A stretch of 64,000 bases of DNA from Serratia symbiotica (Periphyllus acericola) (lineage in GTDB: Bacteria; Pseudomonadota; Gammaproteobacteria; Enterobacterales; Enterobacteriaceae). Shown here one piece after another: positions 10,350 through 59,751 of the stretch. Location of the stretch: positions 310,001 through 374,000 of the forward strand of contig NZ_OZ026452.1 in the NCBI RefSeq assembly GCF_964019515.1, read 5' to 3'. The notes under the pieces were generated by a model. The model did not search any database. It saw only the letters and a program-made list of their open reading frames with translations, and was not told the DNA's origin. The number at the start of each line of letters is the position of its first letter. Within the stretch, counting starts at the first letter, position 1. The translations under genes were made by a program, and so were the position numbers.

Positions 10350-11399
10350 GGCGTTGTTGAATAAATCCAACTTTTGGCTGGGACGCGGATCAGATCACTC
10401 TCCTTCTGTCAACATAGCGACATTCCGTGGCCCAGCAAAAGTTCAACATCACCAACTGGAAGGCTTACAACAACGCCCTTATCACTCGGGGTTCACTCAC
10501 TTGCTGGGGGGATGAAACGGCACTTCACGCCTGGTACTGCGAGGCAAAACCTTCTCTGCGTGGTCGCACACCACATTATTCCGATATGGCAATCACCAGC
10601 GTATTGATGCTGAAACGGATTTTCGGCCTGACACTTCGCGCCCTCCAGGGCTTCGTCGACTCCATTGTCACACTGATTAAAGTGCTGTTGAACTGCCCGG
10701 ACGACACCTGCATCAGTAAGCGGGCGAAGTCCGGCCATGTCCCGTTTAAAACACCAACGCCAGGTGAAATTGCGCACCTCGTTATCGACTCTAGCGGGCT
10801 CAACGTGTTGGGTGAAGGGGAGTGGATGGCAAAAAAACATGGTCAGGAAAAACGGCGGATCTGGCGAAAACTGCATTTGGCCGTAGATACAGAAACACAT
10901 GAGGTCATCTGTGCTGACCTTTCCTTGAGCAATGTCACCGATACCGAAGCCTTCCCAGGTCTTATCCGCCAGAGGTACCGTAACATCAAAGTCGCCTCGG
11001 CGGATCGGGCTTAGGATACGCGAGTGTGTGATGATGAGTTAAGGGGCAAGAAGCTCAAGGCGTTAATACCGCCCAGCAGCGGAGCCCGTTATTGGTCGGC
11101 AGACTATGCAGAGCAAAATCAAGCGGTGGCGAACCAGCGCGTTACCGGAGACAACACACGGTGGAAAAGTATCACAGGCTACCACCGACGTTCGATAGCG
11201 GCAACAGCGAGGTACAGAGTAAAATAGCTATTTGGTCACCTGTCGCTGCGAGATTATGATGGGCAAGTTGCAGAGGCGCTGGCCATGATCTGTGCATTAA
11301 ACAAGATGCCGCTCGCCGGTATGCCAGAAAGTGTACGCCTTGCCTGAAAGCTACCCATTCACGGGACTCTATTCCAAATCCGATTTATTCAACAAAGCC
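10350..11399 (+). mobile_element. IS903-like element, copy 2, near full length
   Basis: Bounded by GGCGTTGTTGAATAAATC at 10350 and the complementary end at 11382-11399. It is 1050 bp long, close to IS903. Flanking 9-mers (GCGTTGAAC / ACTTCGTGC) differ, so no target duplication remains. It sits exactly where the alaA block meets the rluE-mnmA block, which are far apart in E. coli, and its right end lies inside rluE. Confidence 0.95.
10427..11347 (+). pseudogene. IS903-like transposase of copy 2, two stops, catalytic Glu replaced
   Basis: One continuous 306-codon frame from a GTG start aligns along the whole IS903 transposase (307 residues). Catalytic Asp121 (LVIDSSGL) and Asp193 (SADRA) are kept. 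TAG stands at codon 196 (11012-11014), where IS903 has Tyr, and a second TAG at 11225-11227. The third catalytic residue, Glu259 of the Y-(2)-R-(3)-E-(6)-K signature, is Ala (GCA at 11201-11203, within YHRRSIAATARYRVK). One codon is missing near 11235. It cannot be an active DDE transposase. Confidence 0.9.
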
Positions 11400-11710
11400 A
11401 CTTCGTGCAGATAGAAGACGTGCCGCAAAATCACGATCTGGCACCGTTGCGCCACGGCGTCACCTTAAAAGATGGCCCCACCTTGCCCGCTATAGTGGAA
11501 CAGGTGGACTAACCGCAATGGATGTGGCCGCGCAATCCACCGATCCGCGAACACAAATCAATCCCCACCACTTGGCTGAAAATCACCCTGTTCGAAGGCT
11601 GAAACCGTCAAATACGCCGCATCACGGCACATATCGGTTTCCCTACCCTGCGCCTGATTCGCTAAAGTATGGGCAACCTTTCATTAGGTGAGCTGCAACC
11701 CGGTGAATGA
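11400..11710 (+). pseudogene. rluE: RluE (23S rRNA pseudouridine synthase) 3' relic
   Basis: The C-terminal part of the large-subunit pseudouridine 2457 synthase starts right after the IS end. Segments HGVTLKDGPTLPA, WPRNPPIREHKSIPT, WLKITLFEG, RQIRRITAHIGFPTLRLIR match the family. At least three in-frame stops interrupt them, and the N-terminal half with the catalytic Asp is gone. In E. coli rluE-nudJ-mnmA are consecutive; here nudJ is absent and mnmA follows after 94 bp. Confidence 0.85.
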
Positions 11711-11804
11711 AAAAATCTTGATTCCCTATTAATGGCCGTGCGCCCACATGCCCGACGTGATATGATTTTTTGCTTATTTTTATCTGCCGGCTCATGAGAC
11801 CCCC

Positions 11805-12905
11805 ATGTCAGACAACAGCCAGAAAAAAGTCATCGTCGGCATCTCCGGCGGCGTCGATTCTTCCGTTACTGCCTATTTATTACAGCAGCAGGGCTATCAG
11901 GTCGCTGGTCTGTTTATGAAAAATTGGGAAGAGGACGATGATGAAGAATACTGCTCAGCAGCCGCCGATTTAGCCGATGCGCAAGCGGTATGTGACAAGC
12001 TGGGTATCAAGCTGCATACGGTGAACTTCGCAGCGGAATACTGGGACAACGTGTTTGAACTGTTCCTGGAAGAGTACCAAGCAGGTCGCACACCTAACCC
12101 AGATATTTTGTGTAATAAAGAGATCAAATTTAAAGCCTTCCTGGAATTCGCTGCAGAAAATCTAGGGGCTGACTTTATTGCCACCGGCCACTACGTGCGC
12201 CACCAGGATGTGGACGGTAAATGCCGCCTGCTGCGCGGTATCGACAGTAACAAAGACCAAAGTTACTTCCTGTACACGCTGAGCCACGAGCAGGTGGCGC
12301 AAAGCCTTTTCCCGGTCGGTGAGCTGGAAAAACCGCAAGTGCGCCGCATCGCCGAGCAGTTGGCGCTGGTCACTGCCAAGAAGAAGGACTCTACCGGCAT
12401 TTGCTTTATTGGCGAGCGCAAGTTCCGCGACTTTCTAGGGCGTTATCTGCCCGCTCAGCCAGGCTTAATCGTCAGCGTTGATGGCCAGACCGTCGGCAAG
12501 CACAAGGGGCTGATGTATCACACCCTGGGCCAGCGCAAAGGGCTAGGCATCGGTGGCATGAAAGACAGCAGCGAGGAGCCGTGGTACGTGGTGGACAAAG
12601 ATGTGGCCAACAATATGCTGGTCGTCGCGCAGGGGCATGACCACCGGCGTTTGATGTCCGCTGGCCTAATCGCGCAACAACTGCATTGGGTTGATCGCAT
12701 GCTACGCAGTGAGCCATTCCGTTGCACAGTGAAAACCCGCTATCGCCAGCAGGACATCCTCTGCCGCGTTACACCACTTGACGATAAGCTCATCGAAGTG
12801 CGATTCGACGAGCCGGTAGCTGCCGTGACTCCAGGCCAATCTGCCGTGTTCTATCAGGGAGAAATCTGCATTGGAGGCGGAATTATCGAACAACGTCTGA
12901 CGTAA
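11805..12905 (+). CDS. mnmA: tRNA-specific 2-thiouridylase MnmA
   Basis: Adds sulfur at position 2 of wobble uridine 34 in the tRNAs for Glu, Gln and Lys. The 366-residue product has the N-terminal PP-loop GISGGVDSS (residues 11-19) for ATP, followed by both catalytic cysteines, in [12 protein letters not shown] (about residue 102) and [12 protein letters not shown] (about 199), and the C-terminal barrel. The gene is intact and starts the mnmA-hflD-purB series, though a 383-bp gap now separates it from hflD. Confidence 0.96.
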
Positions 12906-13288
12906 AAAAGGGTCAGGTGCTGCAATCACCGCAGCCCATGAACGCCTTTATTTAAAATGTTGAGTTACCCAATCAGGCGCAAGCTCTAATAGTTCCGACA
13001 CGATCAGTGCGAGAAGAACTGACCACCACAATATGCCTGTGTCCTCCGCCAGAGCATGCCGGCTTTTTGCGCTGCTCTACGTCACACGGCAGCTCTGCCT
13101 TAGCGTCGGCGTACTAGGCACTGGGTTTAGCGCTGATTTTGTGGCATGATCTGTAACATTTGTTGTCATCGTTGTTGTTACAGCCATGGCTGATCATCAC
13201 CGAATTGTAGCCACTGCCGTCACCCTTTCGATACAAATAATTTTATAGAGTAAGCCATGTACCATTAACCGTGTTTACAGGAGTAGCC
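12906..13288. other. Gap between mnmA and hflD
   Basis: 383 bp without a recognisable gene. Any frame is short and no homology was recognised. It ends in the hflD ribosome site AGGAG at 13281-13285. In E. coli the two genes are close together, so this may be eroded spacer or hold a separate promoter for hflD-purB. Confidence 0.4.
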
Positions 13289-15314
<2,026 letters not shown>

Positions 15315-15365
15315 ACAGGTAACCACCGAGCTAATATAAGTTGGAACCAGTGGCAGTAAAATTAT

Positions 15366-15395
15366 CCAGAAACCTTGTTGGTTTCCGGATTTTTT
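15366..15395 (+). terminator. Rho-independent terminator after purB
   Basis: CCAGAAACC (15366-15374) and GGTTTCCGG (15380-15388) form a nine-position stem with one mismatch around a TTGTT loop, followed by ATTTTTTA. It lies 52 bp after the purB stop and separates it from the phoP promoter region. Confidence 0.85.
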
Positions 15396-15527
15396 ATGCC
15401 GATAGTTCAACTTGCCCTACACTTCAGGCATGCCCGTCATCCCTTGGCTATCTGCAAAAATCCTGCTCTCAAATACACCTTTGGATGAAATGCTGAGTTT
15501 ATGTTTTATTAAACTTTGCACCAGAAC

Positions 15528-15544
15528 TGTTTATTCAGCGTTTA
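15528..15544 (+). promoter_or_regulatory. PhoP box upstream of phoP
   Basis: TGTTTA-TTCAG-CGTTTA matches the known PhoP direct repeat (G/T)GTTTA-N5-(G/T)GTTTA in 11 of 12 defined positions. It is about 190 bp before the phoP start, in the position of the autoregulatory site of E. coli phoPQ. The operator has survived although phoP and phoQ are broken. The rest of 15396-15734 holds no gene. Confidence 0.75.
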
Positions 15545-15734
15545 TCAGCCGTTGCCGATAATAAGTCAGATCAAAAATCAATAACGTTTTTTCCGCTTAC
15601 CTTGGGAACAAAACGGGCTATATCTACCATAACTTCGAATGGATAAGGTGCCCGTGCGCGTTCGCTAGAAAGCGTGTTACCTTTTATAACGTGGGTGCCA
15701 GGCCTGTTCACCAGAACATCTATAGGAGTTCACC

Positions 15735-16406
15735 GTGCGAATACGCGTTGTCGAAGATAATGGTTTATTATGCCACCACCTTTCCGTTCAGATGCGTGAA
15801 ATGGGTCATCAGGTTGATGCTGCTGAATACGCAAAATAAGCCGATTACTTCCTGCAAGAACACGCGCCAGATATTGCCATTGTCGATCTTGGACTGCCAG
15901 GCGAAGACGGCCTTAGCCTGATCCGACGCTGGCGCGCTCACCAAATGAAATTGCCGATTCTGGTTCTGACCGCGCGCGAAATCTGGCAGGACAAAGTGGC
16001 AGTGCTAGAGGCCGGTGCTGACGACTATGTCACCAAGCAGTTTCATTTAGAAGAAGTGATCGCTCGCATTCAGGCGTTAATACGCAGTAACAGCGGCTTG
16101 GCCTCACAGATTATTGTGCTGCCGCCGTTCCAGATCGATCTGTCGCGCCGCGAGCTGAGTGTTAATGAGCATAACATCAAATTGACTGCCTTTGAATACA
16201 CCATTATTGAGACGCTGATCCGCAATGCCGGCAAAGTGGTCAGCAAAGATTCGTTGATGCTACAACTGTACCCGGACGCCGAATTGCGCGAGAGCCATAC
16301 CATCGATGTGCTGATGGGTCGCCTGCGCAAAAAAGTACAGGCAGAATATCCGCAGGACGTGATCACTACTGTGCGTCGCCAAGACTATCGCTTTGATGTA
16401 AAATGA
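15735..16406 (+). pseudogene. phoP: Response regulator PhoP, one internal stop
   Basis: Full-length OmpR-type regulator frame from a GTG start after AGGAG. It is damaged by a single TAA at 15837-15839, where E. coli has Glu (DAKEADY). The phospho-acceptor region [14 protein letters not shown] is intact, but other sites have drifted: the conserved Lys-Pro of the receiver reads KQFH instead of KPFH, and the DNA-binding wing motif RGQGY reads RRQDY. The changes at sites normally fixed suggest that loss is not recent. Residues 71-223 could be made only from an internal start and would lack the receiver core. Confidence 0.92.
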
Positions 16407-16508
16407 GCAGTACGCTTAATGAGGATATAAAACCGTTTTCATTGTGCGCGCTTTTTAATGGCAACTGCTGGTGTGATCCTAGCATTGTCTCTGTCTTACT
16501 GCTTCTAG
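16403..16508 (+). pseudogene. phoQ: PhoQ N-terminal relic (first membrane segment only)
   Basis: An ATG overlaps the phoP stop (ATGA), as expected for phoPQ. KPFSL leads, with a frameshift, into FLMATAGVILALSLSYCF, the first membrane helix of the PhoQ sensor kinase. TAG follows at 16506-16508. All periplasmic, HAMP and kinase parts are missing: the sequence passes directly into the roxA 3' part, so one deletion removed most of phoQ and the start of roxA. Confidence 0.75.
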
Positions 16509-16835
16509 CAATGGTTAGGCGAGTTTATCTCTCAGTCACGCCACGAGTTGGATATAGCACCACTGGAACCACCCCATCAAATCAGTGAAATTTGCCAATT
16601 GCTGCAACAAGGTGAATCGCTTCAGCGATTAGGTGGCCTGCGTGTACTGCTCATCGGCGGTCAATCTTTCATCAATGGTGAAGTGATTGACACCGAGCAC
16701 TTGCCAGCAGTAGATGCTTTGTGCCATAACTTCAGTGTTGATGCAGCCTTGCTTGGCGAAGCAGTGGACGATCCGTCATTTATGGGGCTGCTGGCCATGT
16801 TGGTAAACAGCGGATATTGGTATTTCATCCACTGA
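16509..16835 (+). pseudogene. roxA: RoxA (ribosomal protein L16 arginine hydroxylase) C-terminal relic
   Basis: An open frame of about 108 residues matches the C-terminal third of E. coli RoxA/YcfD: QWLGEFISQSRHELDIAP, then RLGGLRVLLIGG, and VNSGYWYF at the end. The JmjC-type cupin domain with the iron ligands is gone, so the oxygenase cannot work. E. coli gene order phoP-phoQ-roxA explains the adjacency. Confidence 0.85.
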
Positions 16836-17276
16836 TCCTAGCACTGAGAAGGTGACGGCACTGTCAGTTTTCAGGGTAGTACCGTAGGTGCTGGTGCTTA
16901 TGGGATATAGTGCCACTGCGTGTTCCATCCCCACCAGTGACACACCGTGGCAATTGTAACCGCCGGTAAACAAATTTGGACAGGACAGAATGACAACTGG
17001 GTGCCATTGGTGCCACCACAGATCGGCTTTACCCTCTGTTCGATAAAGCTGGCATTGCTGGGATTATTTGTCGCATCATGATAAAACAAGCGACACTGAA
17101 TCGGAACGGCTTTCAATTCCGTCTTACAGAGTCTATCATGCGCGCTCTAAAGTTTTCTATTGGCACTGCTGGTTTTGAAGCTCCATTCAATCATTGGGGC
17201 AACCCTAGAAGCTTCGGCAGTCTTTTCCAGTTGCGGTTCTATCTGCATTAGACCACGGGATAGAGTGACATTATAA
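16836..17276. other. Unassigned region before potA
   Basis: 441 bp that I could not assign. Minus-strand frames show short protein-like stretches, for example GTTLKTDSAVTFSVLGS (near 16830-16890) and KAVPIQCRLFYHDAT (near 17070-17116), in different frames, suggesting a decayed gene read on the minus strand. E. coli has pepT between roxA and potA, but no PepT motif was seen. The 3' end should contain the potABC promoter. Confidence 0.35.
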
Positions 17277-20215: not shown

Positions 20216-20260
20216 GCGGCGCATACCGGATCAACTCAATACTGTTGAAGGACATGCTGC

Positions 20261-35659: not shown

Positions 35660-36446
35660 GGCTTTGTTGAATAAATCGGATTTGGAATAAAGAGTCCCGT
35701 GAATGGGCATCTTTCAGGCAAGGCGTACACTTTCTGGCATACCGGTGAGCGGCATCTTGTTTAATGCACAGATCATGGCCAGCGCCTCTGCAACTTGCCC
35801 ATCATAATCTCGCAGCGACAGGTGACCACCAAATAGCTGTTTTACTCTATACCTCGCTGTTGCCGCTATCGAACGTCGGTGGTAGCCTGTGATACTTTTC
35901 CACCGTGTGTTGTCTCTGGTAAGGTGCTGGTTCGCCACCGCTTGATTTCGCTCTGCATAGTCTGCTGACCAATAACGGGCTCCGATTTCCTGACCGTGTT
36001 TTTTTACCTTCTACTCCCCTTCACCCAACACGTTGAGCCCGCTAGAGTCGATAACGAGGTGCGCAATTTCACCCGGCGTTGCGGTTTTAAACGGGACATG
36101 GCCGGATTTTGCCCGCTTACTGATGCAGGTATCGTCCGGGCAGTTCAACGGCACTTTGATCAGTGTGACAATGGAGTCGACGAAGCCCTGGAAGGCGCGC
36201 AGTGTCAGGCCGAAAATCCGTTTCAGCATCAATACGCTGGTGATTGCCATAGAGAAGGTTTTGCCTCGCATTACCACCGTTTCATCCACCGAGAAAGTGA
36301 GTGAACCCAGAGTGATAATGGCGTTGTTATAAGCCTTCCAGTTGGTGATGTTGAACTTTTGCTGGGCACGGCATGTCGCTATTTTGACAGAAGGAGAGTG
36401 ATCTGATCCTCGTCCCGGCCAAAAGTTCTATTTATTCAACAACGCC
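35660..36446 (-). mobile_element. IS903-like element, copy 3, internally deleted
   Basis: Ends GGCTTTGTTGAATAAATC at 35660 and the matching end at 36446; 787 bp. The element has the same three internal deletions as copy 1, including the joint QE-IGARYW, and the same TAG after GEGE in the minus-strand transposase frame. Ala replaces the catalytic Glu259 here as well. Flanks (GGAAAAATC / TCTGACGTC) are not duplicated. It separates the hemA block from the mscL block. Confidence 0.93.
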
Positions 36447-45567: not shown

Positions 45568-46622
45568 GGCGTTGTTGAATAAATCGAACTTTTGGCCGGG
45601 ACGAGGATCAGATCACTCTCCTTCTGTCAACATAGCGACATTCCGTGGCCCAGCAAAAGTTCAACATCACCAACTGGAAGGCTTACAAAAACGCCCTTAT
45701 CACTCGGGATTCACTCACTTGCTGGGGGGATGAAACGGCACTTCACGCCTGGTACTAAGAGGCAAAACCTTCTCTGCGTGGTCGCCCACCACATTATTCT
45801 GATATGGCAATCACCAGCGTATTGATGCTGAAACGGATTTTCGGCCTGACACTTCGCGCCCTCCAGGGCTTCGTCGACTCCATTGTCACACTGATTAAAG
45901 TACCGTTGAACTGCCCGGACGACACCTGCATCAGTAAGCGGGCAAAGTCCGGCCATGTCCCGTTTAAAACCCCAACGCTGGGTGAAATTGCGCACCTCGT
46001 TATCGACTCTAACGGGCTCAACGTGTTGGGTGAAGACGAGTGGAAGGTAAAAAAACACGGTCAGGAAAAACGGCGTATCTGGCGAAAACTGCATTTGGCC
46101 GTAGATACAGAAACACATGAGGTCATCTGTGCTGACCTTTCCTTGAGCAATGTCACTGATACCGAAGCCTTCCCAGGTCTTATCCGCCAGAGGTACCGTA
46201 ACATCAAAGTCGCCTCGGCGGATCGGGCTTAGGATACGCGAGTGTGTGATGATGAGTTAAGGGACAAGAAGCTCAAGGCGTTAATACCGCCCAGCAGCGG
46301 AGCCCGTTATTGGTCGGCAGACTATGCAGAGCGAAATCAAGCGGTGGTGCACCAGCGCGTTACCGGAGACAACACACGGTGGAAAAGTATCACAGGCTAC
46401 CACCGACGTTCGACAGCGGCAACAGCGAGGTACAGAGTAAAACAGCTATTTGGTGGTCACCTGTCGCGGCGAGATTATGATGGGCAAGTTGCAGAGGCGC
46501 TGGCCATGATCTGTGCATTAAACAAGATGACGCTCGCCGGTATGCCAGAAAGTGTACGCCTTGCCTGAAAGATGCCCATTCACGTGACTCTTTATTCCAA
46601 ATCCGATTTATTCAACAAAGCC
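45568..46622 (+). mobile_element. IS903-like element, copy 4, full length (1055 bp)
   Basis: GGCGTTGTTGAATAAATC at 45568 and the complementary end at 46605-46622 bound 1055 bp, the IS903 length. Flanking 9-mers (ACATCGTTG / CATCTGACG) do not match. It joins the yrdA end of the aroE block to the yceF-rne block, which lie far apart in E. coli. Confidence 0.95.
45645..46568 (+). pseudogene. IS903-like transposase of copy 4, full-length frame with two stops
   Basis: From GTG 45645 the frame has exactly 308 codons including the stop, the same as IS903 (307 residues), so residue numbers transfer directly. Asp121 (LVIDSNGL) and Asp193 are present. TAA occupies codon 38 (45756-45758) and TAG codon 196 (46230-46232). 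Codon 259, Glu in IS903, is GCA for Ala (46419-46421). The second and third defects are shared with the other copies in the window that retain these positions. Confidence 0.92.
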
Positions 46623-48267: not shown

Positions 48268-48499
48268 GGTGCGGAATTCTAAAGAGAGCGCGTTAATAGC
48301 GCCACATCTATTTCTGTGCTTAACTGTCTCTTAGATGGCGTGTGAAACCCCGGCGACAAATAAGCAAGACAGTATGCCGATTTGAACGTTTGCGATTTCC
48401 TCCACCGTTGGAAAAGTCACCTTGCTATAACGGCATCAGCAATGGAATAATGTAGTTTCTTTCTGCGTTTATTCTAGTTACAGGAAAAAGGTGGAATTA

Positions 48500-48817
48500 T
48501 GGATTTGTCAGATCGCGCAAAAACGCAGCAATGGCGTAAGACGTAATGCGAAATCACACAAATAGCGGGCTGCAGGTTTTAGCTTGGGCGGCAAATGGAA
48601 TCAGGTCTGTCAACGTTAATCATAAGCTATTCCCAAAATAAAATTGCTGTCTTCACAAAGAAATATCGGCATTACCGAAATAATGCGCCCTTATGCAGGC
48701 GACAACCGTGAGGCTGAAGGCTTTGCAAGAAAATTTGGGGTTTTCGGTTCTGATCCGGCCATGTGGTTATTTTGCCCGCAGCTTTGTCGATAATGTAAAA
48801 ATAACGAGTAAGTTAAG
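48500..48817 (+). promoter_or_regulatory. rne 5' leader (autoregulatory UTR)
   Basis: RNase E controls its own mRNA through a long structured leader. From memory of E. coli, matching blocks are present here: GCAGCAATGGCGTAAGACGTA near 48526, AGCGGGCTGCAGGTT near 48564, AACCGTGAGGCTG near 48703, and a block just before the start with TTGCCCGCAGCTTTGTCG (about 48773-48790) and TAACGAGTAAGTTA. These cover the hp2 and hp3 stem-loop regions. The rest of the 48268-48500 interval holds no gene; promoters are probably near 48430-48470. Confidence 0.7.
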
Positions 48818-51800
48818 ATGAAAAGAATGTTGATTAACGCAACTCAGCGGGAAGAGTTGCGTGTTGCTCTCGTAGATGGACAACGGCTGTATGACTTGGA
48901 TATCGAGAGCCCAGGCTATGAACAGAAAAAAGCGAATATTTACAAAGGCAAAATCACCCGCATTGAACCAAGTCTTGAAGCAGCATTCGTGGATTACGGT
49001 GCAGAACGTCATGGTTTCCTTCCGCTTAAAGAAATTGCCCGCGAATACTTCCCCAGTAACTATTCTTCCCATGGTCGTCCAAACATCAAAGATGCGTTGC
49101 GCGAAGGCCAAGACGTCATCGTTCAGATAGACAAAGAAGAGCGCGGCAATAAAGGCGCAGCCTTAACTACCTTCATTAGCTTGGCAGGCAGTTACCTGGT
49201 GCTAATGCCGAACAACCCGCGCGCCGGTGGTATTTCCCGCCGTATTGAGGGTGATGACCGCACCGAACTGAAAGTGGCGCTTTCCTCCCTGCAACTGCCG
49301 GATGGTATGGGTTTGATCGTTCGCACTGCCGGTATTGGTAAATCCGCTGATGGGCTGCAATGGGATCTCTCCTTCCGTTTGAAGCATTGGGAAGCCATCA
49401 AGAAAGCTGCCGAAGGCCGCTCCGCGCCGTTTTTGATCTATCAGGAAAGCAACGTGATCGTGCGCGCATTCCGCGATTACCTGCGCCCGGACATCGGCGA
49501 AATATTGATAGACAACCCGAAAATTCTCGATCTGGCCAAAGAGCACATTTCAGCGCTGGGTCGCCCAGATTTCAACAGCAAAATCAAATTGTATAGCGGT
49601 GAAATTCCTCTGTTTAGTCACTACCAGATCGAATCACAAATTGAATCAGCTTTCCAACGTGAAGTGCGCTTGCCCTCGGGCGGTTCGATCGTTATCGACA
49701 GCACTGAAGCGCTGACTGCTATCGACATCAACTCTGCACGTGCTACCCGTGGCGGCGACATCGAAGAAACTGCGTTTAATACCAATTTGGAAGCGGCAGA
49801 CGAAATTGCCCGCCAGTTGCGTCTGCGCGACCTCGGTGGACTGATCGTCATCGACTTTATTGATATGACCCCATTGCGCCACCAACGTGAAGTTGAAAAC
49901 CGCCTGCGTGACGCAGTGCGCCAAGACCGCGCACGCATCCAGATTGGCCGCATTTCCCGCTTCGGGCTGCTTGAGATGTCGCGTCAGCGTCTCAGCCCGT
50001 CGCTGGGAGAATCCAGCCATCACGTCTGCCAGCGCTGTAAGGGGACCGGCACTGTCCGTGATAACGAATCACTGGCGTTGTCCATCCTGCGTTTGATTGA
50101 AGAAGAGGCACTGAAGGAAAATACCAAAGAAGTTCACGCCATCGTACCCGTTCCGGTTGCCTCTTACCTGCTGAACGAAAAGCGTGATGCGGTCAGCGCG
50201 ATCGAAAAATGTCAGGCGGGCGTGAAAGCGATCATCGTGCCAAATGATCAAATGCAGACGCCACATTACTCGGTATTGCGCGTACGCAAGGGGGAGGAAA
50301 CCTCTACTCTCAGCTACCTGCTACCGAAACTGCATGAAGAAGAAATGATGCAACTGCCTGAAGATGCATCCACTGAGCGCAAACGCCCAGAACAGCCAGC
50401 GCTGGCGACCTTCTCATTGGCTGCTGACAACCCGTTGCCTACCGAGGAACCCGTGATTACCCAATCGGCAGCCGCCATCGCTGTTGCCAAGCCGGGTCTG
50501 TTAAACCGCCTGTTCGGTGGCTTGAAGGCGTTACTCGCCTTTGAAAAGCATCCCGCGGCTATCGAAACCAAACTAGCTGAAGCGCCGCAGGTAGAAAACA
50601 ACGTTAAAAACCGTTGCCCACAGCGTCGTAGCCGGCAGGGTTCTGGTCGCAAAGTGCGTGCTGAAGGCCGTGACAGGCGTGAAAATCGTGAACCGCGCGA
50701 GTCTGGCGAAGAACCACGCCGCAACCGCCCCAATCAGCCGCAAAACGTACCGGTTGTCGAAGAGCATATATCTGATGAAGTTGGCATGCCCTTGCGTGAT
50801 GAGCAACAACAACGTCGTGAACAACGTGCAGAACGTCAGCGTCGCCGCCAGGAAGTAAAAGCGCAGGAAAGCACTGCTGTCGATAACGGTGAGGCACCGG
50901 AAGACAAACAGCAGACGCAAAACATGCAGCGCCGCCAACGCCGTCCCCTGACGCAGAACGTCCGCCTACTGTCCTCTGAGGAAGAATTGGATCGCGCGGC
51001 GGAAGAACTGCTGGCACCAAAAGCACCGGCTGCTAAAATTGAAGAGGCTCAGCAGGTAAGCCTAGAAAACAGCGTTAAACTGCTACCGAAAACCATGGCT
51101 GCTCAGGTAGAAAATGATGCCCAGGGCGATAACCGTAGCAATAACGAAAACAGCATGCCGCGCCGCTCACGACGCTCACCGCGCCACTTGCGCGTCAGCG
51201 GTCAACGTCGTCGACGTTACCGTGATGAACGTTACCCGCTGCAATCGCCCATGCCTCTGGCCGGGGCTTTCGCTTCACCGGAGCTAGCGTCAGGCAAGGT
51301 TTGGGTAGGCTACCCGGTTGCTCAGGCAGCGCAGACGAAAACAACTGAAGTTAAGACCAATTCCCACCAGACCACGCAAGACAATGTGCTAACGTCAGCA
51401 GAGGTCACAGTGTCAGTTATCGATGACGCCGTTGAACCGCAAATCATTAATATTGAAAAAACCACCTCTGGGGTTGCAGCCGCATCTATAGTGCAATCAA
51501 CTACCGTTGTTGTAATTGCAACTGAGGCAGCCCCCGCCATGGAAGGGGTTGCAGAAGTGCAGACATTCGAGCCAATGATAGCCAGCGAAAAAGCCCCAGC
51601 AGAGATGGAAACGCCAATGTATAAAGCTGCTGTTCCGGTCACTGCCGAACTGGCTTCAGCGCTGCAACAACAGCCTCCGGTGAAAGTCGTGCCAAATACA
51701 CAGTGCAAGCATATTGCTAGTGCACCGATGACCAAAGCTCCTGCGTTGGCTTATGTGCCAGAAGAACGCAAGCATAGCGACTGGCAGCGCCCTTCCTTCA

Positions 51801-51889
51801 GTTTCACAGGCACAGGTACCGCAGGTGGGCATGCGGCAGTGAACCAGGCTATGTCACCGGCCGTCAAACCGCCGCCGATTAACGACTAA
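48818..51889 (+). CDS. rne: Ribonuclease E
   Basis: Main endoribonuclease for mRNA decay and rRNA/tRNA processing, and scaffold of the degradosome. The 1023 residues comprise an S1 domain, the DNase-I-like catalytic domain with metal Asp in [13 protein letters not shown] and [11 protein letters not shown], and the zinc-link CQRCKGTG. The membrane-targeting helix is [17 protein letters not shown]. The C-terminal half is disordered: arginine-rich RNA-binding AR2 [20 protein letters not shown] and the PNPase-binding tail [11 protein letters not shown]. Slightly shorter than E. coli (1061), mostly in the low-complexity C-terminal half. Open throughout. Confidence 0.97.
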
Positions 51890-52006: not shown

Positions 52007-52014
52007 CACTCGCT

Positions 52015-52831
52015 GGCAATGACCAGCGTATTGATGCTGAAACGGATTTTCGGCCTGACACTTCGCGCCCTCCAGGGCTTCGTCGACTCCATTGTCACAC
52101 TGATCAAAGTGCCGTTGAACTACCCGGACGACACCTGCATCAGTAAGCGGGCGAAGTCCGGCCATGTCCCGTTTAAAACCCCAACGCCGGGTGAAATTGC
52201 GCACCTCGTTATCGACTCTAGCGGGCTCAACGTGTTGGGTGAAGGCGAGTGGATGGCAAAAAAACACGGTCAGGAAAAACGGCGTATCTGGCGAAAACTG
52301 CATTTGGCCGTAGATACAGAAACACATGAGGTCATCTGTGCTGACCTTTCCTTGAGCAATGTCACCGATACCGAAGCCTTCCCAGGTCTCATCCGCCAGA
52401 GGTACCGTAAAATCAAAGTCACCTCGGCGGATCGGGCTTAGGATACGCGAGTGTGTGATGATGAGTTAAGGGGCAAGAAGCTCAAGGCGTTAATACCGCC
52501 CAGCAGCGGAGCCCGTTATTGGTCGGCAGACTATGCAGAGCAAAATCAAGCGGTGGCGAACCAGCGCGTTACCGGAGACAACACACGGTGGAAAAGTATC
52601 ACAGGCTACTACCGACGTTCGATAGCGGCAACAGCAAGGTACAGAGTAAAACAGCTATTTGGTGGTCACCTGTCGCTGCGATATTATGATGGGCAAGTTG
52701 CAGAGGCGCTGGCCATGATCTGTGCATTAAACAAGATGAGGCTCGCCGGTATGCCAGAAAGTATACGCCTCGCCTGAAAGATGCACATTCAGGGAACTCT
52801 TTATTCCAAATCCTATTTATTCAACAAAGCC
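52015..52831 (+). mobile_element. IS903-like element, copy 5, 5' end missing
   Basis: Similarity to the other copies begins at GGCAATGACCAGCGTATTG and continues to the right end at 52831. About 240 bp with the left terminal repeat and the transposase start are missing. The remaining frame (52019-52777) has TAG at codon 196 equivalent (52439-52441) and Ala for Glu259 (SIAATARYRVK). Since only one end is left, it cannot transpose, and its position next to a rne terminator and a relic gene points to a deletion that removed one end. Confidence 0.92.
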
Positions 52832-52835
52832 ACCT

Positions 52836-53091
52836 AACATATCCAACTTGCTATCAACCTGGCTGACAAACAATTGGAAATGCCTAGCTACACTAGGTTT
52901 ATCCAAGGCTTCACTGCTAGCCCAACGCTCGAAGCTGTCGAAGGTATCCGGCTTTTCCAAATCGTGGAGCGGACGTTCTGTAGGTTACCCAACTTTTTGC
53001 GGCTTGGTTAAATAAGCTCGTGTCTCGCATCGCTGACGATAGACGCAAACTCAGGTTTCTCTTGTCGCCTGGCAATGACGCTTATTTCCAT
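52836..53091 (-). pseudogene. Antibiotic-biosynthesis-monooxygenase (ABM) domain protein, relic
   Basis: From ATG 53091, MEISVIARRQEKPEF starts a small ABM-type (YgiN-like) ferredoxin-fold protein. TAA follows after 27 codons. Further on, in another frame, DLEKPDTFDSFERWASSEAL is the typical centre of this family, then HFQLFVSQVDSKLDML. The 3' end abuts IS copy 5. Assignment rests on the motif pattern only, and no specific gene is recognised. Confidence 0.5.
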
Positions 53092-53312
53092 TTCTTTCCC
53101 CCTATCCAGATAATAAAGACCAGGCTCTGGGCGCTTCAATCACCAGGATCATTAAAATCCCTACCACTATGTGGCCAATAGCCAATTGATTTGAACTTGG
53201 TTGCAACAAACAGATGCATCAAGGGAATTTTCCACTTATCCTTACAGCCCGGCGTGGATAACCCCATTATTCGCTTATAGATAAACGTTTTCTGACCGCT
53301 GGAGCCAGCACC

Positions 53313-53328
53313 ATGACTGCATGACTGC
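53313..53328 (+). repeat. 8-bp tandem duplication at the pyrC start
   Basis: ATGACTGC occurs at 53313-53320 and again at 53321-53328. It duplicates the start codon of pyrC: the first ATG reads Met-Thr-Ala and then TGA, while the second opens the true frame ([13 protein letters not shown]). Confidence 0.88.
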
Positions 53329-54357
53329 ACAACCCCAATCCCTGAAAATTCGCCGCCCTGATGACTGGCATATCCATCTGCGTGACAGCGAGATGCTGAA
53401 AACGGTGGTGCCCTATACCAGTCAGGTGTTTGGCCGGGCGGTAGTGATGCGGAACCTGGCTCCGCCAATCACCACTGTGGACGCCGCTCACGCCTACCGT
53501 CAGCGCATACTGGCCGCCGTGCTGCAGGGCGACATCTTCACCCCGCTGATGACCTGCTACCTGACCAACTCTCTCTCCGCTAAAGAACTCGTTAACGGAT
53601 TTGAACAAGGTGTGTTTACCGCCGCCAAACTGTATCCCGCAAATGCTCCAGCAACGGCGTGAGTAATGTAAAAGGCATTTATTCACTGTTTGAGAAAATG
53701 CAAAAAATCGGCATGCCGCTACTGATCCACAGAGAAGTCACCGATGTCGCTGTCGATATCTTTGACCGCGAGGCGTGCTTTATTGAACAAGTGATAGCGC
53801 CAATCCGCCTACAGTTCTCCGAACTAAAAATCGTCTTCGAGCACATCACCACCAAAGAAGCTGTTCAATATGTGCAGGATGGCGATCGATTCCTTTGTGC
53901 CACAATCACACCGCAACATCTGATGTTCAATCGCAACCATATGTTGGTTGTAGGCATTCGTCCGCATCTGTTTTGTCTGCCGATCCTCAAACGCAATATT
54001 TATCAGGTAGCGCTGTGTAAAGCGGCCACCAGCGGTTCAGATCGTTTTTTTCTCGGTACTGACTCAGCACCGCACACCAAACACCGCAAAGAATCCGACT
54101 GAGGTTGCGCAGGCGTGTTCAATGCCCCGAACGCGATATCGGCCTACGCCACTGTCTTTGAGCAACTAGACGCGTTGCAACACCTTTAAGCGTTCTGCTC
54201 ACTGAACGGGCCGCGCTTCTATGGCCTACCGGTCAATGAAGATTTTATCAAACTGCAACACGGGCCGACCACTCAACCAGCAGAGATAGCTCTGGGCAAC
54301 GAATCTGTCATACCTTTCTTTGCTGGCTAACCCCTGAACTGGTCGCTAAATGGCTAA
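53321..54357 (+). pseudogene. pyrC: Dihydroorotase PyrC, frameshift and three stops
   Basis: Third step of pyrimidine synthesis. The frame starts [20 protein letters not shown] (metal ligands in DWHIHLRD). After AAKLYPANA it shifts near 53640 and continues [12 protein letters not shown]. Stops then follow: TGA at 54100 (for Cys in ESSCGC), TAA at 54190 and TAA at 54328 (both for Glu in E. coli). LIHREV replaces LVHGEV near a metal His. [25 protein letters not shown] and FLGTDSAPH are still clear. The damage is extensive enough to exclude function. Confidence 0.93.
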
Positions 54358-54393
54358 TCTTTTTTAGCATTATTATTGCTCCCACAGAGGAGA

Positions 54394-54413
54394 AACTGTA
54401 TAAATAATCAGTA
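54394..54413 (+). promoter_or_regulatory. LexA box upstream of dinI
   Basis: AACTGTATAAATAATCAGTA contains CTG-N10-CAG (54396-54411), the core of the LexA operator, with the AT-rich centre typical of strong boxes. It ends 20 bp before dinI, the position expected for an SOS-controlled promoter. Confidence 0.85.
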
Positions 54414-54432
54414 AAATACTTTAGGAGCAAAT

Positions 54433-54672
54433 GTGCGTGTTGAAGTCACTATAGATAAAACCAAGCCGCTGCCATCAGGAGCTATTGAGGCTCTGACCGT
54501 CGAGCTGATCAAGCAGGTGAACCGCCAATTTCCTGACGCAGTAATTCAGGTACGTTATGCCAGCGCTAACGGGCTATCAGTGCTACGGGGGAGGAAAACC
54601 AACCGGGATCTGATCGAGGAAATACTCCAGGAAACGTGGGAAAGCGCGGACGAGTGGTTCAGCACAGAATAA
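54433..54672 (+). CDS. dinI: DNA damage-inducible protein DinI
   Basis: Small SOS protein that binds RecA filaments and modulates their co-protease activity. 79 residues, full length (MRVEVTIDKTKPLPSGAIEA ... EILQETWESADEWF). The in-frame start is GTG at 54433, six bases after AGGAG. An ATG at 54431 overlaps it (ATGTG) but is out of frame. E. coli uses ATG, so an extra TG may have been inserted at the start. The LexA box upstream shows SOS control. Confidence 0.92.
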   Translation: MRVEVTIDKTKPLPSGAIEALTVELIKQVNRQFPDAVIQVRYASANGLSVLRGRKTNRDLIEEILQETWESADEWFSTE

Positions 54673-54937
54673 ATACTGCAATGCTGCTTTTACCAATGCT
54701 TGCTTAGTTTTCCAACTGTTTTGTTTTCGGCATCCCGCCACCCAACTCGGATACAACCATTATTAATCATTCAATTCACCGATAAAATTGGTAAATAAAC
54801 ATTTATTTTGCAAAATAAGTGGTGAAAAGTGCCAACAAATGCAATCAGATGCGTATACTGTAGTTGCTCTCATGATGATGAGCCGCATTGATCCTCGTTA
54901 GTCACTCAGGGTAGTTACTACTTAATAAGGGGTCTTT

Positions 54938-55192
54938 ATGGACAGAAACGATGAAGTAATTCAGACACACCCGCTTGTTGGTTGGGATATCAGCACTGTC
55001 GATATTTACGATGCTATGATGATACGCCTTCATTATCTGTCTTCACTAGACCAAACGCCCGTAGAAGCTCAAGTAGACAGAACGCTTTGGCTTACTACAG
55101 ATGTCGCTCGTCAATTAATCAACATATTAGAAGCCGGTATCGCCAAGATTCAGTCTACAGATTATCAAGCTCACAATATAAGCAAACATTAA
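54938..55192 (+). CDS. bssS: Biofilm regulator BssS
   Basis: Small cytoplasmic protein that affects biofilm formation and signal transport in E. coli; mechanism unknown. The 84-residue length and sequence (EVIQTHPLVGWDISTVDIYD, LWLTTDVARQLINILEAGI) match. A GGGG-containing ribosome site lies just before the ATG, and a TATACT -10-like hexamer is at 54854-54859. The dinI-bssS order follows E. coli. Intact, which is notable among so many lost accessory genes. Confidence 0.93.
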   Translation: MDRNDEVIQTHPLVGWDISTVDIYDAMMIRLHYLSSLDQTPVEAQVDRTLWLTTDVARQLINILEAGIAKIQSTDYQAHNISKH

Positions 55193-55212
55193 TTCACTGA
55201 GCCAAAACCTGA

Positions 55213-55240
55213 AGCGCCGTGACTATCCTGGCGCTTTTTT
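55213..55240 (+). terminator. Rho-independent terminator after bssS
   Basis: AGCGCC (55213-55218) pairs with GGCGCT (55230-55235) around an 11-base loop, followed by a T-run to 55240. It is 20 bp after the bssS stop. The following 55241-55526 has no recognisable gene. Confidence 0.85.
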
Positions 55241-55526
55241 GCCTGAGTGCCGCATGACAGATGTATTGTCGTAGCCGACCTTTTATCATAATCCGCCAAG
55301 CGACATCTAAACAGAGAGAATAGGTACGTAGAATGGCTTTGTTGATGGTGCTTAAAGCCGCTAGGGCATTTCGCCTGCAAAATAGGGCTTACATGAGAGG
55401 GGGAACAATACGGAAATTTAACAGGCAGATATAATAATACTACTGTTGCATTTTTACTTAATATGAAAAGAATTAGCAAGTTAATAAACCTAACCTGATA
55501 GCAATTTGCCCGCTGCAGACGGATGG

Positions 55527-56425
55527 GGCGTTGTTGAATAAATCAAACTTTTGGCCGGCACGCGGATCAGATCACTCTCCTTCTGTCAACATAGCGACAT
55601 TCCGTGGCCCAGCAAAAGTTCAACATCACCAACTGGAAGGCTTACAACAACGCCCTTATCACTCGGGGATCACTCACTTTATTATTCCGATATGGCAATC
55701 ACCAGCGTATTGATGCTGAAACGGATTTTCGGCCTGATACTTCGCGCCCTCCAGCGCTTCGTCGACTCCATTGTCACACTGATTAAAGTGCTGTTGAACT
55801 GCCCGGACGACACCTGTATCAGTAAGCGGGCGAAGTCCGGCCATGTCCCGTTTAAAACCCCAACGCCGGGTAAAATTGCGCACCTCGTTATCGACTCTAC
55901 CGGGCTCAACGTGTTGGGTCAAGGGGAGTGGAAGGTAAAAAACACGGTCAGGAAAAACGGCGGATCTGGCGAAAACTGCATTTGGCCGTAGATACACAAA
56001 CACATGAGGTCATCTGTGCTGACCTTTCCTTGAGCAATGTCACCGATATAGAAGCCCTCCCAGGTCTCATCTGTCAGAGGTACCGTAAAATCAAAGTCGC
56101 CTCGGCGGATCGGGCTTAGGATACGCGAGTGTGTGATGATGAGTTAAGGGGCAAGAAGCTCAAGGCGTTAATACCGCCCAGCAGCGGAGCCCGTTATTGG
56201 TCGGCAGACTATGCAGAGCGAAATCAAGCGGTGGCGAACCAGCGCGTTACCGGAGACAACACACGGTGGAAAAGTATCACAGGCTACCACCGACGTTCGA
56301 TAGCGGCAACAGCGAGGTACAGAGTAAAACAGCTATTTGGTGGTCACCTATCGCTGCGAGATTATGATGGACAAGTTGCAGAGGCGCTGGCCATGATCTG
56401 TGCATTAAACAAGATGACGTTCGCC
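55527..56425 (+). mobile_element. IS903-like element, copy 6, 3' end missing
   Basis: Left end GGCGTTGTTGAATAAATC is at 55527. Similarity stops around AAGATGACG at 56411-56425, in the last 40 codons of the transposase, and the sequence passes into an ipdC fragment. The transposase frame starts at GTG 55604 but has an internal deletion after the first 20-odd residues, a frameshift near 55938, TAG for codon 196 (56117-56119) and Ala for Glu259. About 170 bp of the right part, with the terminal repeat, is gone. Confidence 0.92.
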
Positions 56426-56849
56426 CTTGGCCGCGGCGTTTGGCGCACAGATTGCCTAGCCGAACCACCGCGTTGTGCTATTGATTGGCGACGGTGCTGC
56501 GCAGATTACCGCGCAAGAACTTGGATCGATGGTGCGAGATGGGCTGAAGCCAGTGATCTTCTTGTTGAACAAAGAGGGGTATAACATTAAGCGTGCAATC
56601 CGCAGCCCTGAACAGCGTTACAACGATATTGCCCAGTGTAACTGGACACTATTATTGCAGGCGCTGGCCAACGAACATCCGGTACAGACGCTGCACGTCA
56701 CTGAACCGGAGCAACTGCAGCAGGCACTGCTTGAAGTGGCAGATTTTCGCCAATTAGCTTTTATTAAAGTGTTACTGCCAAAGATGGATATCCCAGAATT
56801 GCTGAGTTTCATCTCTCGAGCTATCCAGAAGAGCAACACTGTTTTGTGA
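56426..56849 (+). pseudogene. ipdC: Indolepyruvate decarboxylase-like C-terminal fragment
   Basis: Reads LAAAFGAQIA, TAG, then PNHRVVLLIGDGAAQITAQE. This is the GDG motif that binds thiamine diphosphate and Mg, followed by MVRDGLKPVIFLLNKEGYN and the tail of an indole/phenylpyruvate decarboxylase, open to TGA at 56849. Only the last quarter of the enzyme remains. The gene is known from Enterobacter and Serratia and supports a Serratia-like source. It could also be a related pyruvate decarboxylase-type enzyme. Confidence 0.75.
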
Positions 56850-57194
56850 ACAGTGTTTATGCCAATCCAGAACTAGCGATTAGTGATGAGCCGTTGCCGA
56901 ACTGCAACTGAACCCGCACTTCTGATTTTATGTAATATAGGCGTTTTACTATTAAGCTCTGGCAATTCCTGCACCGCGATCATTTTCTACTGTAGTGGGA
57001 AATGGGGATCAGAACCGCTGTTTAGGAATGCAACACTAGAGTTAGGAAGATGGCCTAACTAAACTTGCTGTAGAGTGCAAATGTTTCAGCCAGCGCACAG
57101 GCACCTAGGCTGATGCTGCAAAGCGCGTTATTTTCGAGTATCATCTGCGCCGTGCAGTAAATCAGTCACCTCCCGAAAGATAGGAAAGTACACA
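56850..57194. other. Non-coding gap before trhO
   Basis: 345 bp with no recognised gene. An inverted repeat AGTTAGG (57040-57046) / CCTAACT (57054-57060) has a seven-base loop but no T-run. The trhO promoter must lie in the last part; its ribosome site is the GATAGGA before 57195. Confidence 0.45.
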
Positions 57195-58262
57195 ATGCCA
57201 GTGTTACATAACCGAATTTCTAATGAGGAACTAAAGGCGCGCATGCTGGCTGAAACCGAGCCGCGTACCACAGTTTCTTTTTATCAATACTTTGTTATCG
57301 ACGATCCCAAAGCGTTTCGTGACAACCTTTATATCCAGTTCGACAAGATAAAGGTTTTCGGCCGCGTTTACGTGGCAAAAGAGGGCATCAACGCGCAAAT
57401 TAGCGTGCCACAAAACAATTTTGCTGCTTTCAAAGATGTGCTGTTTGCCTCACACCCGGCGCTGGATAAGGTGCGTCTAAATATCGCGTTGGAAGATGAC
57501 GGCAAATCCTTTTGGGTGTTGCGCCTGAAAGTGCGTGAGCGCATTGTGGCTGACGGCATTGATGACGATAGTTTTAACCCGGCAAATGTTGGTGAATATC
57601 TGCAAGCCGATCGCGTTAACCAAATGATCGATGATCCAGATACGCTGTTTGTCGATATGCGCAATCACTATGAGTATGAAGTGGGTCACTTTAAAAATGC
57701 CATTGAGGTGCCTTCAGATACCTTCCGTGAGCAACTGCCGATGGCGGTTGAGATGTTACAGGAAAGCAAAAACAAAAACATTGTCATGTACTGTACTGGC
57801 GGTATTCGCTGTGAAAAAGCCAGCGCCTACATGCGGCATAACGGGTTTGAAAACGTTTACCATGTAGAAGGAGGGATTATTGAATATGCGCGCAAGGCGA
57901 AAGAGCAAGGGCTATCGCTGAAGTTTGTCGGCAAAAACTTTGTGTTCGATGAGAGAATGGGCGAACGGATAACTGATGATGTGATCGCCCATTGCCACAA
58001 ATGTGGCATACCATGCGATACCCATACCAACTGTAAAAATGAGGGTTGCCACCTGTTGTTTATTCAGTGTCCGATTTGCGACGCCAAGTTTGAAGGCTGT
58101 TGCAGTGAGATCTGCCGCGAAGAGCTGGAGCTACCGCGTGAAGATCAACACGAACGTCGCGCAAAGCGTGGGAGTGGCATAAAGATCTTTAATAAGGCGA
58201 AAAGTCTACTGCGTACCACGATGCACCTTCCAGCACAAGAAAAAGCCGGGTCGGCCAAATGA
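57195..58262 (+). CDS. trhO: tRNA uridine(34) hydroxylase TrhO (rhodanese family)
   Basis: Oxygen-dependent hydroxylation of U34 as a step toward 5-methoxy/carboxymethoxy-uridine in tRNA. The 355-residue protein has an N-terminal acylphosphatase-like domain ([18 protein letters not shown]) and a rhodanese domain with catalytic Cys in [17 protein letters not shown]. The C-terminal cysteine-rich part is [14 protein letters not shown] ... [12 protein letters not shown]. Intact and close to E. coli YceA in length (350). Confidence 0.95.
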
Positions 58263-58345
58263 TGATGCCGAAGTCTTTCAGCTTGATCTTGCCGCTGGCT
58301 TCAAAGCCAGCACAGTAACCGTCCCAAGAATCATTCCCTTGACCA
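58262..58345 (-). pseudogene. yceI: YceI C-terminal relic
   Basis: On the minus strand, [20 protein letters not shown] and KIKLKDFGI match the periplasmic lipocalin-like YceI near its C-terminus. Only about 30 codons remain. It is joined to the end of yceJ in the same direction, so a deletion has merged the two neighbours. The trhO stop lies at the other side. Confidence 0.75.
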
Positions 58346-58731
58346 ATCAGCTTGGTAGCCAGCCCGTGCAGCAGCTAAAGCACGATCACGGCCCAGGCCA
58401 GGTAAAGGGTATCGGTAATGCCAGTTTGCTCGGCCATGCTGCTGATGGTGGTGGGAACCTAAAACTAGCCGAACACGCTGATTGGCTAGCCACCTGCGGG
58501 GAGAAAAGATAGCCGTTGATCAGAATGCTAAACAGCGTTACATACAGCGTTGGTTGAATCAGGCTGCTACTGATACGCGTAAAGCGTCTGTAACGAGTCA
58601 GCAGTATGCCAATACCTTTATGGTTCTTCTGTACCTTATTATACCAAGCATAGTAATAGCCCTGCGTTACTCTCCACAGACCAAAAGCGAACATAATGTA
58701 CGCAATCAGTGCCACTAGCGCGTGGATCAAC
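58346..58731 (-). pseudogene. yceJ: Cytochrome b561-like YceJ, relic
   Basis: HALVALIAYIMFAFGLWRVT, then SYY-type GYYYAWYNKVQKNHKGIGIL, followed by a shifted and shortened middle (TLYVTLFSILINGYLFSPQ), and [22 protein letters not shown] near 58365-58400. These are helices of the di-haem b561 family. The N-terminus is removed by IS copy 7, whose end starts at 58733, and several stops and shifts are present. Confidence 0.8.
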
Positions 58732-58732
58732 A

Positions 58733-59751
58733 GGCGTTGTTGAATAAATCGAACATTTTGCCGGGACGAGGATCAGATCACTCTCCTTATGTCAAAATAG
58801 CGATATTCCGTGGCCCAGAAAAAGTTCAACATCACTAACTGGAAGGCTTACAACAACGCCCTTATCACTCGGGGTTCACTCACTTTCTCCGTGGATGAAA
58901 CGGCACTTCACGCCTGGTACTGCGAGGCAAAACCTTCTCTGCGTGGTCGCCCACCACATTATTCCGATATGGCAATCACCAGCGTATTGATGCTGAAACG
59001 GATTTTCGGCCTGACACTTCGCGCCCTCCAGGGCTTCGTCGACTCCATTGTCACACTGATCAAAGTGCCGTTGAACTGCCCGGACAACACCTGTATCAGT
59101 AAGCGGGCAAAGTCCGGCCATATCCCGTTTAAAACCCCAACGCCGGGTGAAATTGCGCACCTCTTTATCGACTCTACCGGGCTCAACGTCTTGGGTGAAG
59201 GGGAGTGGATGGCAAAAAAATACGGTCAGGAAGATACAGAAACACATGAGGTCATCTGTGCTGACCTTTCCTTGAGCAATGTCACCGATACCGAAGCCTT
59301 CCCAAGTCTCATCCGCCAGAGGTACCGTAAAATCAAAGTCGCCTCGGCGGATCGGGATTAGGATACGCGAGTGTATGATGATGAGTTAAGGGGCAAGAAG
59401 CTCAAGGCGTTAATACCGCCCAGCAGCAGAGCCCGTTATTGGTCGGCAGACTATGCAGAGCGAAATCAAGCGGTGGCGAACCAGCGCCTTACCGGAGACA
59501 ACACATGGTGGAAAAGTATCAGAGGCTACCACCGACGTTCGATAGCGGCAACAGCGAAGTACAGAGTAAAACAGCTATTTGGTGGTCACCTATCGCTGCG
59601 AGATTATGATGGGCAAGTTGCAGAGGCGCTGGCCATGATCTGTGCACTAAATAAGATGCCGCTTGCCGGTATGCCAGAAAGTGTACGCCTTGCCTGAAAG
59701 CTGCCCATTCAGGGGACTTTTTATTCCAAATCCGATTTATTCAACAACGCT
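58733..59751 (+). mobile_element. IS903-like element, copy 7, nearly complete
   Basis: Left end GGCGTTGTTGAATAAATC at 58733; the right end at about 59751 reads ...CAACAACGCT, with the last base changed. It is 1019 bp. The transposase frame (GTG 58810 to 59697) has an in-frame deletion of 12 codons after KKYGQE, TAG for codon 196 (59359-59361), and Ala for Glu259. It has inserted, or recombined, between yceJ and frdA. Confidence 0.94.

Follow-up and report, generated by a model that had tools for sequence, protein, structure and literature searches.

The stretch analyzed here (the window; 64,000 nt, G000:C1:310001-374000) lies in a degenerating Serratia symbiotica-like genome of one contig (G000, 1,897,958 bp) and contains seven copies of an insertion sequence (IS) of the IS903 group (IS5 family), an element with a unit length of 1055 bp that is present in the genome as about 170 copies and fragments (Table 1). 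Copy 4 serves as the reference, and its residues are given in IS903 numbering, which we take to apply from the 308-codon frame and the DDE layout. A sequence-only reading of the window had reported Asp121 (GAC) and Asp193 (GAT) within this frame, a TAG at codon 196 in every testable copy (2, 4, 5, 6 and 7; copies 1 and 3 are without this codon), Ala in place of the catalytic Glu259 in all seven copies, and in copy 7 a single in-register stop beside its 36-bp (12-codon) deletion. All of this was borne out. It had also concluded that the defects preceded multiplication of the element, and had offered three explanations: a dead master mobilized in trans by an active relative, gene conversion among the copies, or catalysis unlike the IS903 model. 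Comparison with a sister genome (G008, 1.5 Mb, matching Serratia symbiotica PERIS-14S) makes it very probable that conversion after insertion, and not one dead founder, spread the family-wide defects, many insertions predating the split of the two genomes; the observation was true, the inference on order was wrong, and one of the three options was right.

Table 1. Copies and features of the IS903-group element in the window (window positions, position 1 being the first nucleotide of the stretch; L302 and L312 are copies in G008).
Feature	Position	Strand	Description
IS copy 1	1739..2507	-	two pieces; codons 193-196 absent; GCA259; blastn projection
IS copy 2	10350..11399	+	full length; TAG196 and GCA259; left junction orthologous to G008 L302
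IS copy 3	35660..36446	-	two pieces; codons 193-196 absent, as in copy 1; GCA259
IS copy 4	45568..46622	+	full length, 1055 bp; reference copy
Copy 4, transposase frame	45645..46568	+	308 codons; stops TAA38 and TAG196
Copy 4, codon 121	46005..46007	+	GAC, first catalytic Asp
Copy 4, codon 193	46221..46223	+	GAT, second catalytic Asp
Copy 4, codon 196	46230..46232	+	TAG (Tyr in relatives)
Copy 4, codon 259	46419..46421	+	GCA, Ala (catalytic Glu, GAA, in relatives)
Copy 4, left terminal inverted repeat	45568..45585	+	from comparison of consensus ends
Copy 4, right terminal inverted repeat	46605..46622	-	from comparison of consensus ends
IS copy 5	52014..52831	+	left-truncated; TAG196 and GCA259
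IS copy 6	55527..56425	+	TAG196 and GCA259; five gaps; left junction orthologous to G008 L312
IS copy 7	58733..59750	+	36-bp deletion; TAG196 and GCA259
Copy 2, left flank	8851..10349	.	95.5% identity over 1499 aligned bp to G008 DNA ending at the L302 IS border
Copy 6, left flank	54056..55526	.	89.8% identity over 1506 aligned bp to G008 DNA, ending adjoining the L312 IS border

A 142-aa piece of copy 4 (45804-46232) scored above the Pfam cut-off for both PF13737 and PF01609, and PF01609 exceeded its cut-off at 150 places in G000 (177 candidates). An annotated IS903-family transposase underlies one plasmid hit (H18, 71.4% identity). A left-end pattern allowing up to 3 mismatches, which may also capture related elements, gave 110 + 80 matches in G000, and an internal pattern gave 66 + 91, with 0 matches for the controls of either. 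Among the matches listed, 155 stretches were taken, yielding 173 aligned copies and fragments, of which 124 span 900 or more positions; since PF01609 also matches at 13 or more places outside these stretches, the set is large yet incomplete. Two diverged relatives (L010p68 and L137p1285) were excluded from the counts, as was L293, which occupies the same place as L176. The diverged IS903-like fragments of G000 at L010:68-229 and L137:1285-1373 show about 72-73% identity over 89-164 bp.

Across G000, codon 196 reads TAG in 133 of 140 readable copies (TAC in 6, CTC in 1) and codon 259 reads GCA in 137 of 143 (GAA in 4, GTA in 1, a gap in 1), so that the search for surviving Tyr196 and Glu259 codons returned six TAC and four GAA. 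The 131 copies readable at both positions comprise 125 TAG/GCA, two TAC/GCA, and one each of TAG/GAA, TAC/GAA, TAG/GTA and TAC/gap. The defects are family-wide, reaching well beyond the window, but are not found in strictly every copy. The element lacks the intact D-D-E triad of the IS5/IS903 group, of which it is a dead member by descent. Two further changes, G194R and M262R, accompany TAG196 and E259A in G000, and the other stop of copy 4, TAA38, looks private and is present in 5 aligned copies. Among 105 copies spanning the whole frame, 36 are free of indels, and none of these 36 is free of stops. Both Tyr196 and Glu259 were found in the plasmid copy of S. symbiotica Pl-LLN (L009) and in the readable copies of G026 and G017 and the longer copies of G020, and we therefore took these states as ancestral; Glu in these relatives and in G008 shows that Ala is not the natural residue of the family. 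The only relative with Ala259 is a 269-bp fragment of G020, a 3.6-Mb genome of the same genus (L177, G020:C1:857365-857633; GCA259), which carries the G000 allele at 1 of 7 other readable diagnostic sites, where that allele is the ancestral one, and none of the other derived alleles of G000 at readable diagnostic sites.

The sister genome carries a different lesion. We obtained 48 G008 copies, 30 through similarity to an undeleted copy, a route biased against the deletion described here, and 18 through the deletion junction itself, a route biased for it. Of the 39 copies readable at codon 259, 38 keep GAA; of the 45 readable at codon 196, 35 have TAC or TAT, six have TTC and none has TAG. Codon 121, however, lies within a gap in 37 of 44 readable copies, and 21 of the 23 gaps measured are a 48-bp deletion that removes Asp121. 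Whole-genome pattern searches (up to 3 mismatches) found about 66 deletion junctions (69 matches, 3 of them seemingly undeleted) versus 17 undeleted stretches.

An insertion junction was counted as shared when the flank of a G008 copy aligned to the flank of a G000 copy at 80% identity or more and ended no more than 6 bp from the IS border; the comparison used 75-bp flanks and an incomplete G000 set, the threshold dropped L308 (75.7%), and one of the 48 loci gave no projection of at least 400 bp. At least one junction is shared by 27 of the 48 G008 copies, with printed offsets mostly 0: five match one G000 copy with both flanks, five match different G000 copies with their two flanks, and 17 match on one side. 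The matches touch 39 flanks, eight of which also match a second G000 flank, and reach 32 of the 155 stretches taken from G000. Copies 2, 4 and 6 of the window are among those matched, copy 4 through its left junction with G008 copy L407 (73-bp flank match) and copies 2 and 6 over 1.5 kb (95.5% and 89.8%). These insertions are therefore older than the split between G000 and G008. The matched G000 copies have TAG at codon 196 wherever it can be read and GCA at codon 259 in all readable cases except one GTA. Since the same insertions bear different family-wide lesions in each genome, the lesions arrived after those insertions, which refutes, at the sites that can be tested, the claim that the defects preceded multiplication.

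That a dead master with TAG196 and Ala259, mobilized in trans by an active relative, founded all copies after acquiring its defects is accordingly refuted as the sole cause by junctions shared with G008 copies that lack them, and we consider it improbable, although the consensus frame has TAG196 as its only stop, genuine 9-bp target duplications at some copies indicate that the element once transposed, and a passage of PMC3914690 raises trans mobilization of pseudogenized IS copies for SOPE and its IS903-type ISSoEn1. Such mobilization is not needed to explain the sharing of defects, and the PF01609 search returned no intact full-length helper among the 150 of 177 candidates scored, helpers of another family or since lost being possible; the only stop-free match that reaches the end of the domain, L110, starts at model position 23 and carries Ala259. 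Moreover, work by Derbyshire from 1990 and 1996 is said to attribute a cis preference of the IS903 transposase to its instability, in which Lon has a role, and lon is intact. Loss of Lon, which might have freed the transposase from its cis preference, was likewise considered and rejected, lon having an intact 803-aa frame in both G000 and G008. A star-like burst from one dead master was dropped too, since among the 4101 differences between copies and consensus only 317 are singletons and since linkage is near equilibrium.

The copies at orthologous sites follow their genome rather than their site. At the five pairs matched on both flanks, the 20 near-fixed differences between the genomes segregate by genome, with G008 L298 at position 678 and G000 L136 at position 933 as exceptions and a third base in a few G008 cells. 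Orthologous copies are no closer than non-orthologous ones: when each of 23 ortholog pairs, from both-flank and one-flank matches together, was set against the average identity that its G008 copy has to 137 copies of G000, only five pairs exceeded this average and one tied with it. The five G008 copies whose flanks match different G000 copies mark breakpoints of rearrangement between IS copies. A third genome, Sm-Midelt (G060), gave long matches (over 500 bp) that are just 65-68% identical, so it offers no ortholog test.

Linkage among the G000 copies is close to equilibrium. For 38 common sites, all four haplotypes are each present in at least 3 copies in 649 of 703 pairs, and mean r2 is 0.108 at less than 60 bp and about 0.01 beyond, near the 1/n baseline; linkage in G008 is likewise near baseline. 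Simulations of conversion with mutation, unfitted and run with two seeds per setting, gave a decay of r2 roughly similar to the observed one at mean tract lengths of 200-800 bp. Recurrent independent mutation at hot sites might break up linkage in the same way, and part of the C>T and G>A variants with frequencies of 10-50% may be recurrent, as the lower mean r2 within 30 bp of transition pairs (0.056) than of transversion pairs (0.120) would suggest; it cannot, however, bring one amber and one missense change to about 95% of copies or remove the same 48 bp from about 66 copies of G008, and local haplotype blocks surround shared variants at several sites, so that we hold it very unlikely as the source of the defects. 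A tightly linked group was seen at IS positions 154, 157 and 160 (codons 26-28), where r2 is 0.75-0.94 and the main derived haplotypes of G000 are G-G-G and T-C-T, the G008-like T-G-T being rare. Evidence for trans-species polymorphism is weak: of 34 sites common in G000, 11 have both alleles in at least 3 copies of G008, and of 719 control sites, 147 have a second allele in at least 3 copies there.

Shared deletions reveal short tracts. In all four groups tested of copies sharing a deletion, carriers are more alike than random copies near the deletion and about equally or less alike far from it; the seven carriers of a 68-bp deletion, for example, are 99.2% identical near it (random copies, 96.6%) and 95.6% far from it (random copies, 95.4%). 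Target duplications, whose length in IS903 we take to be 9 bp, match at 8 or more of 9 positions in 10 of 132 two-ended copies (seven exactly, three at 8/9), and no near-matches were seen in these copies at an 8- or 10-bp register. Between the ends of different copies, about 27 ordered pairs match at 9 bp, versus about 2 at 8 bp and about 1 at 10 bp, a few repeated flanks in G000 adding to the 27. PMC11708052 describes that target duplications are lost when IS copies recombine with one another. Mosaics and mispaired flanks of this kind could also be false, made by an assembly or polishing that mixed reads of different copies, a concern for a single contig in which some 170 repeats, each up to 1 kb long, are almost identical. 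We judge this explanation quite unlikely, given that deletions 2 to 68 bp long are passed on within tracts, that base polishing would hardly create the 48-bp and 68-bp deletions, and that the separately assembled G008 has another family-wide lesion at the same sites.

Variation among the copies looks close to neutral. The ratio of nonsynonymous to synonymous variants (N/S) over its expectation is 1.07 for variants in one copy, 0.93 for 2-4 copies, 1.04 for 5-14 and 0.68 for at least 15 (30 N, 17 S). A protein that still works, with the amber read through and catalysis proceeding without Glu259, could find comfort in the otherwise open consensus frame; it is scarcely credible in view of this near-neutral N/S, of the indel-free frames that all contain stops, and of further stop variants carried by up to 17 copies. 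The search for an amber suppressor that the sequence-only reading had proposed returned no CUA anticodon in G000 (Rfam gave 53 tRNA hits, of which ARAGORN called 51, none with CUA; inspection of the remaining two by eye showed GTC and no CTA), and its suggestion of a catalysis unlike IS903 is unsupported. A decayed-looking tRNA-like gene at L331:443-517, found by Rfam and not by ARAGORN, has GTC in the anticodon place and lies downstream of 5S rRNA and tRNA-Thr genes.

Near-equilibrium linkage, short tracts, shuffled target duplications and near-neutral variation together indicate that the defects spread in place by conversion, the alternative of the sequence-only reading that gained support. 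Many insertions, at least those matched at the 27 G008 copies, are older than the split of the two genomes, and since then the copies would have exchanged sequence through homologous recombination, probably performed by RecA, whose frame is intact in G000 and G008. Short conversion tracts would homogenize the copies and crossovers would shuffle their flanks, and with the transposase no longer selected, a loss that presumably came first, catalytically dead alleles could drift or be driven through the pool. The outcome would be TAG196 and E259A, with G194R and M262R, in G000, and the 48-bp deletion removing Asp121 in G008; conversion probably acted at the unmatched sites too. Identity among copies with at least 800 aligned positions is 95.63% within G000 and 87.01% between the genomes.

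Several results weigh against this account. Within G008 the identity is only 85.15%, below the between-genome value, so that copies are more alike within than between genomes in G000 alone; as G008 copies are less alike than copies from different genomes, conversion there has apparently stalled while decay continued. The short-range r2 of the simulations (0.08-0.12) is somewhat under the 0.133 observed, and the N/S of 0.68 in the commonest variants may hint at older constraint. No shared junction was found for 21 of the 48 G008 copies with the 75-bp flanks and incomplete G000 set. Some of the linkage equilibrium could stem from recurrent mutation, and mis-assembly in repeats could contribute where there are no reads. 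Finally, neutral conversion does not predict a bias in substitution class that the high-frequency alleles display.

This bias was found at 920 sites polarized with G008 and at least one outgroup. The 24 derived alleles present in at least half of the G000 copies comprise 12 A>C/T>G changes, 11 C<>G changes and one transition, while the 275 singletons comprise 53 A>C/T>G, 25 C<>G, 116 transitions, 62 C>A/G>T and 19 A<>T. The excess of A>C/T>G and C<>G is strong (Fisher p=4e-11), a p-value that is post hoc because the test was made after the pattern had been seen; earlier partitions of these data had pointed the same way. Both TAC>TAG and GAA>GCA belong to the favored classes. Without polarization, the IS consensuses of G000 and G008 differ by C<>G at 19 sites, by A/C or G/T at 15, by a transition at 5 and by A<>T at 3; the corresponding numbers in 12,133 bp of other DNA aligned between the two genomes are 25, 234, 425 and 40. 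This other DNA comprises the lon region, the recA region and two flanks and, being coding in part, is under selection. No such bias is present in G008 (5 of 14, p=0.77), where C<>G alone is marginal (p=0.05).

A tentative explanation is a mismatch-type filter on IS conversion in G000, through which escape from MutS (C<>G, through C.C) or a push by MutY (A.G to C.G, yielding A>C and T>G) would let alleles sweep; transitions and A<>T changes would then stay private, and the filter, not selection, may have chosen the dead alleles that became family-wide. A.G and C.T mispairs are poorer MutS substrates, and MutY turns A.G into C.G. The mutS frame (TIGR01070, 853 aa) is intact in G000 and G008. Passages of PMC5021808 report C.C mispairs as uncorrected by MutS and G.G as corrected, and one of PMC8956659 reports that C-C mismatches evade repair in Vibrio natriegens. 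The filter model suggests why some classes are missing and why A/C changes run in one direction, but it fails on the C<>G fixations (11 of 24, against a singleton supply of 25 of 275) and on the unbiased G008. General GC-biased conversion was rejected as a full account, since no weak-to-strong transition (0 of 24) reaches half of the copies and C<>G changes do. A mutT mutator yields A>C/T>G changes and may be part of the cause of that class, not of C<>G.

Elsewhere in the window, an RNase E 5' untranslated region element (rne5, RF00040) was found at 48459-48793. The open frame downstream of it (48818-51889, 1023 aa) matches relatives of rne; the closest named records are from Serratia symbiotica Sm-Midelt (90%) and PERIS-14S (88%), in a comparison that may omit records very close to G000 itself.

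Defects shared by all copies of an IS family invite the reading that a dead founder multiplied in trans, and two sister genomes show that this reading can be wrong. About 170 copies behave much like a recombining population, in which tract length, drift and conversion bias can be studied within one genome. Confirmation of the class bias would speak to a possible bias in bacterial gene conversion and to the repair enzymes behind it, and the filter reading, if true, would make an IS family a natural readout of bacterial heteroduplex repair. No publication on conversion among S. symbiotica IS copies or on MutY-biased conversion stood out in a literature scope outside which most subscription journals lie.

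With IS903 the element shares the 308-codon frame, the DDE layout, the 9-bp target duplication and related terminal repeats; unlike IS903, it is catalytically dead, and at the nucleotide level the enterobacterial plasmid copies listed are about 71-73% identical to it, a plasmid copy of S. symbiotica (H1) reaching 91%. Gene conversion maintaining nonfunctional IS copies in Wolbachia was reportedly described by Cordaux in 2009. For Wolbachia wBm, a citing passage in PMC3196728 presents such conversion among non-functional copies, and the likeness is close, highly similar dead IS copies of an endosymbiont being kept alike by conversion; set beside wBm as that passage portrays it, G000 differs in its roughly 170 copies and fragments, in orthologous sites from two genomes, in a separate lesion for each genome and in the class bias. 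Amoebophilus asiaticus, according to the same source, likewise bears a load of inactive IS, 83% of its full-length copies lacking direct repeats. In the Sodalis-like symbiont SOPE, ISSoEn1 (IS5 family, IS903 subgroup) has 311 copies, many of them disrupted, in IS families that are more than 94% identical, for which passages of PMC3914690 name recent expansion or gene conversion. As described there, SOPE retains 189 intact ISSoEn1 copies, whereas none was found in G000, where conversion could be tested at orthologous sites. Set against these systems, the G000 family is a large example of a known process, joined by one strong statistical anomaly.

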